A stretch of DNA of 64,000 nucleotides, taken from Turneriella sp. (GTDB lineage Bacteria; Spirochaetota; Leptospiria; Turneriellales; Turneriellaceae). The translations under genes and the position numbers were made by a program. This document shows positions 300 to 47,955 of this stretch, piece after piece. Position 1 is the stretch's first letter. Each line of letters opens with the position of its first letter. The stretch is from NCBI GenBank assembly GCA_019186965.1, contig JABARV010000023.1:1-64000 (forward strand), in the 5' to 3' direction. A model generated the notes under the pieces. It was not told the origin of the DNA and searched no databases. It worked only from the letters and a program-made list of their open reading frames with translations.

Positions 300-3200
300 A
301 TGATTGAAATTGCGGGTGTGCCAGTAGAGGAGGCGAGCGTATCTCCTTCCGAAAAGCACCTCATCTTCCACCAAGAGCTGGTACTTACCGAAACGACAAA
401 AGCTAACTTACGTAAAATTTTGTATCCGCTTTTAGAGGGACAAAATTTGCTTTTGGTTGGTGATGCAGGTGTGGGTAAAAATGCACTTATCTATTATATA
501 AATAAAATGCGTTCTTTACCGACAGTGCGTTTTAGTTTTAACCAAGATACGTTGCCAGAAGATTTGTCGGGGTCTTTCCGCGTACTACCAAACGGCTTCC
601 AGTGGAATAATGGTCCACTTGCGGAAGCTCTTGAGAAAGGGTATACATTTGTCGCCGACGAGATGAATTTAGCCTCTCCCGAAATCCTCAAACGTTTTGT
701 TAGCGTTTTTGACCGCCGTACATTGGCTCTTCTTGAAAAAGACGGAAGTGAAATTTGTGCAAGCGAACGTTTTTCTTTTGTTGCGACACAAAACCCTGCA
801 CGTGGCTTTGAAGGAAGAAAAAATTTGCCCGAAGTAATTATGCGGCATTTTACAACGATTTATCTCGATCATTATCCCGAGCACGAAGAAAAAGAGATTT
901 TGCGAGGGCTTTATCCCGAAGTATACGCAAGTATAGCAGATACTATTATAACCGTACAGCGTGCGCTTGAAGCAGCGATATGGAAAAATGAGTTAGCAAA
1001 AGAGGAACTTGAACATTACCATTTCAATTTACGTACCGCGCAAAGGTTTATGAATCGTGCGCTTGTTGAGGAAGTAATATCTGTAGATGATCCAAAATTT
1101 CGCGATCTCCTTTTTACTTTTTTTGTGGATGTCTTTCGTGCGGATATTGACCGTGAGGGTGCGCGTAAAATTTGTGCACAAGTTTTATTGTACGATTTTG
1201 GCGCATTTGAACGTGACTATAAAATTTACCAAGAAATACCTTCTACACCTCACGAGGCGGATGTCTCTACGGAAAGCGTTTTATCAGCGACGCGTTTATT
1301 TTTTCCTGTAACTTCTCTACGCGAGCAGTTACTTGAAAAAATAGGTGCTTCTTTAGTTGCAAGCGATAATCTTCTTCTTGAGGGCGACGATGCTGCTCGC
1401 ATGTTAGAGCTTTGCCATACATACGCTTCGCGCCAAAAGGAAGGTGTTGGTGTTACTGAGATTTTTCTTTCGCGTGGAATGCATACCAGTGATATCATCG
1501 GTGCTTTGAGGCCCGTGCTACACGGAGGTAGCAGGGGCGTCGCTGCCACGGATGGCATCGGATCGGCGGCCGTGCTACACGGAGGTAGCAGGGGCGTCGC
1601 TGCCACGGATGGCATCGGATCGGCGGCCGTGCTACACGGAGGTAGCAGGGGCGTTGCTGCCACGGATGCTAAGCAGAGCGTGCGATGGGTCGATGGTCCC
1701 TTGACCGCTGCACTCCGGCGTGGCGACCTAATTATTTTAGAAAACATAGACGCAGCAGGGAGCGAACTTGTTGAAAAACTCAATATGCTTCTTGACCATG
1801 CAGGGCGATTAGCCCTACCTCCTGAGGCAGAGGGCGTTTCGATTCTTAAAAAAGAAGGAACGTGCCGCGTGGTTGCACTTAAACGCACGCGTAAAAGCCG
1901 AAACCAACAAACGATTTCACGGGCATTGCGCAACCGCTTCTTTAGTATGCATATACCTGTTCTTGAAACGCAGGAAGAAATGGTGGATGTAGCAGCGCTT
2001 GCGCTTGAAAATGAGTTTGGAAAGGATGCTTCGGCGTTGCGGAGTAACTTTGTTAAGAAACTTGCGCTTTTTCACACGAAGGCAGACGAAGCTGCGCGTG
2101 AGAAAAAAGTGGGCGCTGCGCTTGCGGAGCGTATTCGGTACCGTGAAGAAAACCTGCTGCGCTTTATTCGCCACTTAGGTTTTTCGTCAAGTGGAGTTGG
2201 CGCACTTAGTGAAGAGGTAATGCGTCGAGGAATCGAAATCTATTATGCAGGAATTTTAGCAGATCCAGAGGAGCGCAAATTTATACGCCGACTTTTTGAA
2301 AGAATTTTTGCAGACATGCCATGGGAAGATATGTTTAGTAGTCTACAAGAAGGTAAAAAAAAAATCCTCGCACAAAAATCGCAGCGCAGTAAAAAAATAA
2401 TTCCTCCCGATTGGGATAAAAAAAAACATTTTCGTGAAGCAAACACCGGCAAAGCTAAAAAAAGGTTAAGCGGGGAAGAGTTAAAAAAGGGACTGCGCAT
2501 TGACACTCCCGAAACAGGCGGTAATATTAAAGAAGGGCCGGATGCATGGTACGGCTCCGATACGCAAGGCAACGGCGGTCAAGGGGAACCCGCTGGCGGT
2601 GGTGGCGCATGGGGATACCGTACAGAAGCGCTCTTTGAAGCGTTTCTTAAAAAGTATAAGCCAAAGTGGGAATACGATATGGGGTACTCGCTTGCCGATT
2701 TTTATGATGTATTTGGTAAAATGCTAAATGCACTGCAGATGGATTTAGAAAATGCGCTCGATGCAGAGCCTGAAATTGATCGCCGTCTTATGGCCGAAGG
2801 AAACCGCGTTGATGCACGCCGTTATATTACGTACCAGGCGTTTGCGGGAAACGACCGTATATTTGACCGCACGCGTATTTTACATTCAGAAAATAAATTG
2901 AAAGGTGTTGAATTTATTTTTATGCTTGCGAAAGGCCGCCGCATGTTTAATTTTAAAGCGGCGCTTTCTGCAATTGTCGCAGTACAGTCTGCTGCTGAAA
3001 TTTTATTTGATAGAAAAATTCCTATTAAAGTATTTGGTTACTCAGACTTTGACAATATGAAACGTGCGATAGACATCAACCGTTATATTTCGACCGAAGG
3101 CGAAAGTCCTTCGCACGAAGAAAAGAGTGCACTTTTTGACGCAATGAGCGATCATTGGAACGGCGATACGGTTGATGAAGCACAAGTATTGCGGCAGGCA

Positions 3201-13840: not shown

Positions 13841-13893
13841 GCTGCCAACTGGTAACGTAGCTACCAACTGGTAGCATCCGCTACCAACTGGTA
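13841..13893. repeat. Three GCTACCAACTGGTA repeats at the end of the PLD gene
   Basis: Copies lie at 13841-13854 (one mismatch), 13860-13873 and 13880-13893, with 19- to 20-bp spacing. Each is a small inverted repeat (TACCA-AC-TGGTA). The rightmost copy overlaps the last codons and the TAG stop of the phospholipase D-like gene, so the present C-terminus (ending NTSW) is written partly by the repeat. The other two lie in the gap before the next gene. Possible roles are an mRNA-stabilising 3' structure, an operator or a small insertion; the sequence does not decide. Confidence 0.75.
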
Positions 13894-33735: not shown

Positions 33736-34152
33736 GTGGCACTTACAGAATCGCAAAAGTCGGAGCTAATGCGGAAAGGGAACGTCCTTTTTAACGAAGG
33801 GCGTTATTTTGACGCAGGACGTATTTTCACTTTAATTGGTTATAAAACTGGGCTTATCCGCTTGGGCGATTTATTCTACTTTGATAAAGAGATGCCTTTG
33901 GTCGCCTACGGCTTTTATAGGAGCGCAAAGCACCAACCCATGCTCGATAAAATAAACGATGGGTTCGTATTTGCCCTTGAGTGCCTTCTTTCGGAAGATG
34001 GTGGCGCAACCCCACAAAAGACAAGCCCAACCCAAGAAGAAACGTATAAAATCCGTACGGCGAACCCTTCGGATGCAGTAGACAAGGTTGTGCAAGAAAG
34101 CAGAGAAAGTAAAATTAACCGTGCGGTTGCGATGCTAAAAAAATTGTCTTAA
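33736..34152 (+). CDS. Small cytoplasmic TPR-like protein
   Basis: A 138-residue protein starting with GTG at 33736. Residues 12-70 resemble one or two TPR-like helical hairpins (LMRKGNVLFNEGRYFDAGRI, LGDLFYFDKEMPLVAYGFY); the rest is polar and probably flexible, with a final helix. No ribosome binding site is apparent. Similar short proteins occur beside signalling genes in leptospires, as far as I recall; no function is assigned. It lies 39 nt after the SpoIIE gene and its stop overlaps the convergent RND pump gene by 4 nt. Confidence 0.5.
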   Translation: MALTESQKSELMRKGNVLFNEGRYFDAGRIFTLIGYKTGLIRLGDLFYFDKEMPLVAYGFYRSAKHQPMLDKINDGFVFALECLLSEDGGATPQKTSPTQEETYKIRTANPSDAVDKVVQESRESKINRAVAMLKKLS

Positions 34153-45072: not shown

Positions 45073-47955
45073 ATGAGTAAAGAAAAAGAAAAAAATCCGT
45101 GGGAGCATACTATATGCCTTCCACAAACCGTATACCCAATGCGTGCAGACCTTGCGAAGCGGGAAAATGAAATTTTATCGCTTTGGGAAAAAGAAGATTT
45201 ATTTCGTTCAATTAACGCGAAGCGGCACAGTGAAGGCGCTCCAACTTTTTTACTCCACGACGGACCTCCTTATGCAAACGGTGAATTCCATTTAGGGCAT
45301 GCACTTAACAAAATACTCAAAGATATTTTAAATAAATACCACCTGTTACGCGGGTACAGGGTTCCGTATGTGCCGGGCTGGGATTGCCATGGGCTTCCGA
45401 TTGAGTTGGCTGCGTTAAAGCAGCTTTCGAAAAAAAAGGATGGTTCAGATAGGGATCCCCTACGTATTCGGCAGGCATGCCGCGAATACGCGGCGGAGTA
45501 CATCAAAATCCAGGCGGCAGACCAAACCCGCTTTGGGGTGTGGTGGCAAAATCCATGGAGGGATACAGGTTCGCAGGCGCATGGAGGCGCAGAAGCGAAC
45601 CAAAATCCATGGAGGGATACAGGTTCGCAGGCGCATGGAGGCGCAGAAGCGAACCAAAATCCATGGAGGGATACAGGTTTGCTACAGGAGGGACATTTTG
45701 AGTCAAAAGACTACTACGCAACGATGAGCCCACACTACGAGGCGTCCATCCTTAAGGCGTTTAGGGATTTATATCTTAAAGGCCTTATTTACAAAGGAAA
45801 AAAACCTGTGTATTGGGACATTACTACACAGTCTGCGCATGCCGAAGCTGAAATTGAATACGCGGAACATGAGTCGCCTTCGATTTATGTAAAATTTCCC
45901 GTTGTGGGTAAAGACGCGCTTAGCGTAGTTATTTGGACGACAACGCCGTGGACGCTACCAGCCAACTTGGCGGTGTGTTTTAACGAAAAATTTGAATATA
46001 CCGTTGCGAAAACCAATGCGGGAAATTTAATTGTTGCTAAAGAATTGCTTCCGCAAATTGCAGAACTTGCAGGTTTAGAAGTTATTGGGAGAGAGCCTTT
46101 GACTATAGATGCTTTGCGTAACTTGCATGTAAGGCATCCATTTTTGGAACGCGATTCAAAAGTTGTTTTTGGCGACCATGTTACTCTTGATGCGGGCACA
46201 GGTATTGTGCATACTGCACCCGGGCACGGCCAGGATGACTACAACGTGGGGCAGAAATATAATTTAGGAGTTTTATCTCCTGTGGACAACCGTGGCAAGT
46301 ACACAAACGAATTTGCGGAGATGGAAGGTAAGTCTGTTTTTGAAGCAAATCCGCTTATTATCGAAAAAATGCGCGAGAACGGCTCTCTTCTTTACGCGAC
46401 CTCCTTTAAGCACCAGTACCCGCATTCGTGGCGTTCGCACAAGCCGCTTATTATGCGTGCGACACCGCAATGGTTTATGCGTATAGACCCCATACGTGAA
46501 AAAGCGTTGGAAGAAATTAAAAAAGTAAAATGGATTCCCGATTGGGGGGAGAGCCGTTTTACTGCTGCGGTAAAAACGCGTCCCGATTGGTGTCTTTCGC
46601 GGCAGCGGTACTGGGGAGTACCAATTCCAGCGTTCCAGTGCAAAGGGTGTGGTCATGTGCATCTGGATGAAGCGTCTTTAAACCACGTTATTGAATTTGT
46701 CGAGAAAGAGGGCGTCGAGGTTTGGTACGAAAAATCGGCGGATGAACTTTTGCCACAAAATACAAAATGTAGCGAATGTGGTTCAGCCGAGTTTACTAAA
46801 GAGAGCGACATTTTAGATGTTTGGTTTGATAGCGGCGTAAGCTGGTACGCAGTTTTAAAGCAAAATCCCGAACTCGGTTATCCTGCGGATGTATACCTCG
46901 AAGGTTCTGACCAGCATAGGGGTTGGTTTCAATCGTCGCTTTGGCCAGCACTCGCGCTTACTGGAGAGGCGCCTTTTAAAAAAGTAATCACCCACGGGTA
47001 TATTTTAGACGCTGTGGGTCGTGCGATGTCTAAAAGTTTGGGAAACGGTATGAGCCCGCGTACGGACATTATCGATAAATTTGGCGCAGATATTTTGCGG
47101 CTTTGGGTGTCGAGTGAAGACTACCGCACAGATAACAAAATTGGGCAAGAGATGATTGGGCACCTAACCGATGCGTACCGAAAAATTCGCAATACGCTAC
47201 GCTATCTTTTAGGGAATACGCAAGATGGTAGCGCAGCCTCTCCACTTTTAGATACTGCAATTACGCAAAAGCTCGACAAGTGGGTTTTAGCAGAAGCGTT
47301 TGAACTTACTAAACAAGTGACCGACGCGTACGATAAAGGTGAGTTCCATTTGGTGTACCAACGGGTATTGCAATTTTGTACGGTAACTCTTTCTAATTTA
47401 TACCTTGATATGGTGCGTGATTCTCTCTATTGCGACGCTTCGCCTTCGGGGCAAAAAGATTCTAAAAATGCGCTTGTAATAGACGCCCTTAAGAGGCGGA
47501 ATTCTACCTTGCGTACATTACAAATTTTGGTCGAAACGCTCACGACGCTTCTTGCGCCCATTTTAAGTTTCACAGCTGAAGAAACGCAACGTGCGTTTAA
47601 TAAAGGAAAAAGTGTCTTTGAAAACCCTTGGCCAAACCTATCGCGTTTTGAAAATAAAGCGCTCTTAGATGAGTTTGAAGTACTCAAGAAAATAAGAGAC
47701 GAAGTAAATATGGCAATTGAGCCCATGCGCAAAGCAGGTGGAATTGGTTCGAACGTCGAAGTTGAGGTGGAATTACCACAAAATGCAGATGCAGAAACCC
47801 TTGTACGCTTTCTCGGGGTGTCGAGTGTGAAGACAGGGACACAAACTCTTAAGGTAAGGAAATCCGACAAACCTAAATGCCCGCGATGCTGGCTCCACCG
47901 AGACTTGAAGGAATCTTCTTTATGCGAAAGGTGCGACGCAGTTGCCTTTAAATAA
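45073..47955 (+). CDS. ileS: Isoleucyl-tRNA synthetase with a repeat-derived insertion
   Basis: A 960-residue class I synthetase. HIGH is HLGH in PYANGEFHLGHALNK, KMSKS is MSKS in AMSKSLGNGM; the CP1 editing region (VIWTTTPWTLPANLAV) and the C-terminal zinc knuckle (CPRCWLHRDLKESSLCERC) are intact. Residues 159-203 are an insertion of two identical 18-residue units plus a partial one, beginning NPWRDTGSQAHGGAEA, between RFGVWWQ and DYYATMSPHYEA. In other IleS proteins those two segments are joined by a short loop, so the insertion appears to be an add-on tolerated before CP1. Because IleS is normally essential, the repeat-bearing protein is probably functional. Confidence 0.95.
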   Translation: MSKEKEKNPWEHTICLPQTVYPMRADLAKRENEILSLWEKEDLFRSINAKRHSEGAPTFLLHDGPPYANGEFHLGHALNKILKDILNKYHLLRGYRVPYVPGWDCHGLPIELAALKQLSKKKDGSDRDPLRIRQACREYAAEYIKIQAADQTRFGVWWQNPWRDTGSQAHGGAEANQNPWRDTGSQAHGGAEANQNPWRDTGLLQEGHFESKDYYATMSPHYEASILKAFRDLYLKGLIYKGKKPVYWDITTQSAHAEAEIEYAEHESPSIYVKFPVVGKDALSVVIWTTTPWTLPANLAVCFNEKFEYTVAKTNAGNLIVAKELLPQIAELAGLEVIGREPLTIDALRNLHVRHPFLERDSKVVFGDHVTLDAGTGIVHTAPGHGQDDYNVGQKYNLGVLSPVDNRGKYTNEFAEMEGKSVFEANPLIIEKMRENGSLLYATSFKHQYPHSWRSHKPLIMRATPQWFMRIDPIREKALEEIKKVKWIPDWGESRFTAAVKTRPDWCLSRQRYWGVPIPAFQCKGCGHVHLDEASLNHVIEFVEKEGVEVWYEKSADELLPQNTKCSECGSAEFTKESDILDVWFDSGVSWYAVLKQNPELGYPADVYLEGSDQHRGWFQSSLWPALALTGEAPFKKVITHGYILDAVGRAMSKSLGNGMSPRTDIIDKFGADILRLWVSSEDYRTDNKIGQEMIGHLTDAYRKIRNTLRYLLGNTQDGSAASPLLDTAITQKLDKWVLAEAFELTKQVTDAYDKGEFHLVYQRVLQFCTVTLSNLYLDMVRDSLYCDASPSGQKDSKNALVIDALKRRNSTLRTLQILVETLTTLLAPILSFTAEETQRAFNKGKSVFENPWPNLSRFENKALLDEFEVLKKIRDEVNMAIEPMRKAGGIGSNVEVEVELPQNADAETLVRFLGVSSVKTGTQTLKVRKSDKPKCPRCWLHRDLKESSLCERCDAVAFK
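45547..45679 (+). repeat. Triple in-frame 54-bp palindromic repeat inside ileS
   Basis: Units start at 45547, 45601 and 45655. The first two are identical over 54 bp; the third is cut after about 25 bp. Each unit contains a perfect 7-bp inverted repeat, GGTTCGC...GCGAACC, with 20 bp between the arms, plus the palindrome CCATGG. Units are 57% GC (31 of 54 by hand count). The period, 54, keeps the frame. The design (two identical units plus a truncated third, internal inverted repeat, in-frame, conserved gene) is the same as at 1513-1669 although the sequences differ. Confidence 0.9.

Follow-up and report, generated by a model that had tools for sequence, protein, structure and literature searches.

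The window analysed here, a 64,000-nucleotide stretch of the genome (G000; 3.08 Mb in 27 contigs) of a Turneriella sp., a relative of Leptospira among the spirochaetes, carries an isoleucyl-tRNA synthetase gene, ileS, with a tandem array of hairpin-forming units inside its open reading frame (Table 1). When the protein is compared with the nearest solved IleRS structures, two stretches align, one on each side of the insert. A preliminary description, made from the letters of the DNA, had reported two identical 54-bp units and a partial third lying in frame within ileS, and this was borne out both by Tandem Repeats Finder, which returned a period of 54, 2.5 copies and 100% matches, and by the reading frame, which stays open across the whole array, the period being a multiple of three.

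Table 1 Features of the ileS array and of related arrays (positions refer to the window unless a contig is named).
Feature	Position	Strand	Remarks
ileS, isoleucyl-tRNA synthetase, host gene	45073..47955	+	960-aa ORF; TIGR00392, 850 bits
Whole ileS array	45547-45679		Tandem Repeats Finder
Repeat unit 1	45547..45600	+	54 bp; Tandem Repeats Finder
Repeat unit 2	45601..45654	+	54 bp, identical to unit 1; Tandem Repeats Finder
Partial third unit	45655..45679	+	head alone; 25 bp, equal to the first 25 bases of unit 1
Head hairpin	45551..45564 (unit 1), 45605-45618, 45659-45672	+	ATCC-ATGGAG-GGAT
Outer stem	45568..45601 (unit 1), 45622-45655	+	GGTTCGC/GCGAACC
Inner hairpin	45577..45590 (unit 1), 45631-45644	+	GCGC-ATGGAG-GCGC
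Residues encoded by the ileS insert			QNPWRDTGSQAHGGAEAN; predicted from the open frame
Array in AAA (dynein-related) ATPase ORF	1513..1668	+	57 bp x 2.7; in frame, sense; hairpins GCTAC-ACGGAG-GTAGC and GCC-ACGGAT-GGC
Two distinct array families in RluA-family gene	G000:C1:98359-98702		adjacent, on opposite strands, both in frame

The inverted repeat GGTTCGC/GCGAACC to which the preliminary description had drawn attention is present in both full units, but it forms only the outer stem and encloses a second hairpin. The 34-base core that it delimits has two matches at up to three mismatches, and 100 dinucleotide shuffles gave none. The predicted RNA fold of a single unit contains both hairpins and has an energy of -22.2 kcal/mol (z = -4.98). 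More telling than the inverted repeat are the two ATGGAG hexaloops of each full unit, which match the CsrA/RsmE site and which the preliminary description does not mention; the complete 133-nt array favours a long cross-unit fold in which the hexaloops are hidden.

To place the insert among relatives, six congeners (G001-G006; the G005 chromosome measures 4,384,015 bp) were compared with the window genome, together with more distant relatives, those of the same class appearing Leptospira-like. The preliminary description had held that homologues have only a short loop at this site. This is true of G002, G003, G005, G006 and every more distant relative aligned, but G001 and G004 have at this position in ileS an insert that has diverged and is present as one copy; the G001 insert retains the plan with different stems (CCC-ATGGAT-GGG and GCC-AAGGAG-GGC). 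The order of the genomes in the IleS tree (G004, G000, G006, G002, G001, then G005 with G003), when set against the list of insert carriers, makes the presence of the insert patchy.

In its own genome the 54-bp unit has ileS as its sole location by exact and near-exact search. At the strictest level set by the preliminary description, under which a family needs a second genomic copy, the family claim would fail, the exact 54-mer being unique to ileS. A protein search with the ileS insert region led to another array, which lies in rdgB on the other strand and has AAAATCCATGGANGGAT in common. The heads of the two arrays are related (z 8.9) despite their opposite insertion orientations. What defines the family is its architecture and loop motif; the stems diverge fast.

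The rdgB site offers a graded series of states across the seven genus genomes compared, since the insert is absent from G001, G002, G003 and G004, consists of one 57-bp unit in G006, of about 1.8 units in G000 and of about 3, one of them interrupted, in G005. The inserts all stop at the identical residue, ahead of a conserved EDSG motif. All three carriers have a complete unit, in which 16 of 16 stem pairs hold and none is broken; comparison of just these three species shows one double change that preserves pairing in every one of the three helices. The agreement is abolished in a control in which the pairing partners are slid along the sequence; hairpin-templated correction during replication could be an alternative source of these changes. 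Both loops likewise remain ANGGAN in the three species, even though the array lies on the strand opposite the gene. Direct repeats that match imperfectly, ATACTGGC and ATATTGGC, border the G006 insert, and slippage between them could regenerate the empty site.

The unit plan common to the family is a head hairpin followed by an outer stem that encloses an inner one, with a length of ~54-60 bp, loops of the form C-ANGGAN-G or C-AGGAN-G, and a tandem layout that reads head-body-head-body-head. A descriptor of this architecture, run over both strands of 864 kb, matched such elements exclusively and gave no match in reversed or complemented control sequence. The genomic sample comprised 1.264 Mb of the 3.08 Mb of G000, taken as stretches, together with parts of G005; the 1.264 Mb of G000 yielded 27 tandem arrays with periods of 40-75, many of which have at least two GGA hairpins and none of which has a control-loop hairpin. 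Folding energy is a less uniform property of the family, the rdgB and window AAA ATPase units folding no better than shuffles (z about -1.4).

Host genes, named by Pfam and NCBIfam, are in G000 those for the AAA ATPase, IleS, an RluA-family protein, a TANGO2-family protein, RdgB, LepA (lepA) and mtaB, and in G005 those for an M3 peptidase (prlC type), SCO1/SenC (six units), glgA (a single copy) and rdgB; an array in ccoG of G000 is probably a degenerate member. GGA-hairpin arrays also lie between genes in G000. The small coding-compatible palindromic family proposed in the preliminary description is upheld as an amplifying family present in many genes, but it is not limited to coding sequence. 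Two more short tandem repeats, of 18 and 19 bp, occur in the window at 33789-33827 and 13841-13893, and the former includes TAACG-AAGGA-CGTTA, with a GGA loop again.

The periods of the arrays differ between genes and intergenic regions. Arrays were taken as genic on the strength of open frames and family matches rather than annotation, and the rdgB arrays of two species, like the two array families in rluA, were entered separately. On this count all 12 genic arrays have periods that are multiples of three (54, 57 or 60), as against one of eight intergenic arrays (53, 55, 58, 59, 59, 59, 62 and 57; Fisher p = 1e-4). About seven of the 11 genic sites are in sense orientation; the four antisense ones are those in rdgB, glgA and mtaB and one of the rluA arrays. 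Selection acting on random landings would yield this bias in frame, and a special in-frame mechanism is unnecessary.

We also asked how widely the motif is distributed. The 12-mer GCCANGGANGGC outnumbers its reversed control by 49 to 3 in G000 and by 104 to 6 in G005, the excess in G005 coming mostly from a cassette array, and this over-representation is seen in the genus and also in certain other genomes of the class. Long cassette arrays of the chromosomal-integron type, as judged by their attC-like ends, are found at G005:C1:3460001-3620000 (L144-L147) and at G000:C1:300001-340000. The G005 cassette array has 53 attC-like ends on one strand within 80 kb, and the ANGGAN hairpins there occupy two fixed places, one ~215-280 nt ahead of an attC-like end and the other 41-55 nt beyond it (25/28), nearly all of them on the cassette strand.

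When 84,980 prokaryote genomes were scanned for pairs of GCCATGGATGGC at unit-like spacing, at least 80 loci emerged. Those among the matches listed come mostly from Gammaproteobacteria, with a few from Planctomycetota, spirochaetes and others, and many share the plan of a head and an enclosed hairpin. Similar arrays appear to be present in many Gammaproteobacteria among the matches listed, a distribution that we treat as approximate because an automatic test recognised two distinct GGA hairpins in only 27 of the 80 listed loci. Many of the 80 are a stereotyped GCCATGGATGGC pair with a period of 44-45 rather than clear tandem arrays, and were set aside; in L163, L168, L182, L200 and similar loci, two GCCATGGATGGC hairpins spaced at 44-45 bp flank a variable middle, and this type, from Lysobacterales and Solimonas-type genomes, is apparently a separate class. 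In viral contigs, 11 matches to the pattern were obtained, with the same plan clear in L127 alone, and two further patterns had no matches. A Spirochaetaceae metagenome contig (L214:1254-1348) combines paired GCCATGGATGGC hairpins with a match to the Rfam TD-2 RNA.

Taken together, we assign a probability of roughly 0.6 to the reading that the ileS insert is a member of a dispersed, tandemly amplifying family of two-hairpin palindromic elements that is filtered for frame within genes. Under this reading, units would amplify in tandem to give the head-body-head-body-head arrays and copies inserted either way round would carry the family to new sites. Within a gene, an insertion would persist only if its unit length is divisible by three, it introduces no stop in frame and the host protein can accommodate the extra loop, the surviving array then being translated as additional residues, and outside genes any period would be kept. 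The repeat itself, its in-frame position as judged by the open frame, the family, its structure and the frame filter are well supported. We infer spread between sites from the related ileS and rdgB heads, which lie in opposite orientations, and from the patchy presence of the insert. The in-frame position of such arrays in many housekeeping genes suggests that repeats of one family can pass from gene to gene and leave the genes intact.

The loops raise the question of whether CsrA is involved. An ANGGAX hexaloop placed directly on a stem is a high-affinity CsrA/RsmE target, and a pentaloop that lacks the N binds more weakly (PMC4005645), while CsrA itself is a dimer whose sites are generally paired (PMC4333381). 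Since the loops in the units have this high-affinity form, directly on the stem with a C-G closing pair, each unit on a sense transcript should offer a pair of candidate CsrA-type sites, and we infer that CsrA, whose gene was found in all seven genus genomes, may recognise the arrays. On this basis the arrays might be selected regulatory RNA, with sense copies binding or titrating CsrA, so adjusting either CsrA itself or the host gene, and with the repeats retained for this role; we consider this explanation unlikely. It draws on the exact match to the published hexaloop and its closing pair (PMC4005645), on the universal presence of csrA in the genus, on the TwoAYGGAY RNAs, which have the same two-hairpin plan and were proposed by Gardner and colleagues to be CsrA-binding sRNAs (PMC4333381), on the Spirochaetaceae contig array that is a TD-2 RNA, and on the cassette array of a congener, where GGA hairpins occupy fixed places by attC-like sites. 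The rdgB, glgA, mtaB and one of the rluA arrays are antisense, however, the host genes have no common pathway, and the arrays are patchy among congeners. Nor do the Turneriella arrays match any Rfam family even at relaxed thresholds: there was no match in the window at the gathering threshold, around ileS at E up to 5 or, with E up to 1, at any of fifteen further loci. Moreover, because the mRNA of an antisense site has no GGA loop, and yet the loops and stems of the antisense rdgB array are intact, the evidence speaks against CsrA control at the mRNA level as the sole reason for the repeats, and the cross-unit fold of the full ileS array counts against it as well.

The remaining explanations carry less weight. 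Ordinary VNTRs, in which a native loop was duplicated in place in each gene with no shared family or spread, would fit the uniqueness of the exact unit and the identity of adjacent units, which is compatible with replication slippage; they fit poorly with the repeated appearance of one unusual two-hairpin ANGGAN plan in about ten genes as well as in intergenic sequence, with its occurrence in both orientations, with the related heads of ileS and rdgB and with the absence of inserts from most of the relatives' orthologues examined, and we regard them as improbable. It is very improbable that these are REP-like elements moved by a RAYT/IS200-type Y1 transposase: the hairpins are indeed short and dispersed and five of the seven genus genomes have Y1 transposase genes, but the ~3-kb loci around those genes in the five genomes contain no ANGGAN or AGGAN hairpin. 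Misassembly, to which short tandem repeats are prone, could in principle have produced the array from a true locus with one unit or none, but with the frame open, related inserts in the corresponding position of two independent congeners (G001 and G004) and many other arrays behaving likewise, we give this almost no credence. Returning to the dispersed, frame-filtered family, a broader version of it can be advanced only tentatively, in which CsrA-type two-hairpin modules would form a mobile superfamily in spirochaetes and Gammaproteobacteria that amplifies in tandem, is defined by loops and not by sequence, and in Turneriella enters household genes in frame and in both orientations, the regulator's site itself being the selfish or spreading unit.

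If the main reading is right, a spirochaete adds another lineage, and a tandem form, to the known in-frame palindromic elements. The rdgB orthologues, with 0, 1, ~2 and ~3 units at one site, make gain, growth and loss directly testable, and the inserts in the genes for IleRS, EF4, RdgB and pseudouridine synthase are natural tests of how far proteins tolerate added loops. The loop, published as the site that a global regulator of RNA recognises, ties the spread of the repeat to CsrA networks, and the similar arrays in many Gammaproteobacteria among the matches listed suggest a largely uncatalogued class of repeat.

In-frame palindromic elements are known chiefly from Rickettsia and Wolbachia, and in the open-access papers searched we found no report of arrays like these inside genes. 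Rickettsia palindromic elements (RPE) and the palindromic coding elements of Wolbachia and Methanocaldococcus are, in the summary given in PMC2996958, short in-frame coding inserts. The likeness to RPE that the preliminary description had pointed out holds in effect, as here too short DNA that folds as a palindrome has entered unrelated housekeeping genes without loss of frame, for the most part in loops that tolerate it; the family differs in most of its genic members being tandem where RPE stand alone as single copies, in having two hairpins per unit, a fixed ANGGAN loop and divergent stems, and in its intergenic members and its lineage. PARCEL elements are likewise palindromic tandem units translated in frame, but theirs are 75-nt units encoding amphipathic 25-residue repeats, mostly in membrane proteins of unknown function (PMC2996958), whereas units of 54-60 bp here add 18-20 residues to housekeeping enzymes, with encoded residues that vary by gene and no conserved protein sequence. 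With TwoAYGGAY RNA (RF01731) and TD-2 RNA (RF03162) the arrays share modules of two paired hairpins with A-Y-GGA-Y type loops, but in Turneriella these are tandem, often within protein genes and in both orientations. CsrA/RsmE hairpins of the CsrB and RsmZ type have the same ANGGAX hexaloop on a stem with a C-G closing pair; the candidate sites here differ in lying within coding sequence, some of them antisense. REP elements and REPINs are also small, dispersed palindromes, unlike these elements in their link to a Y1 transposase, of which the ~3-kb loci around the Y1 genes of the genus showed no sign. In kind, the family stands beside the in-frame palindromic elements, as a variant form.
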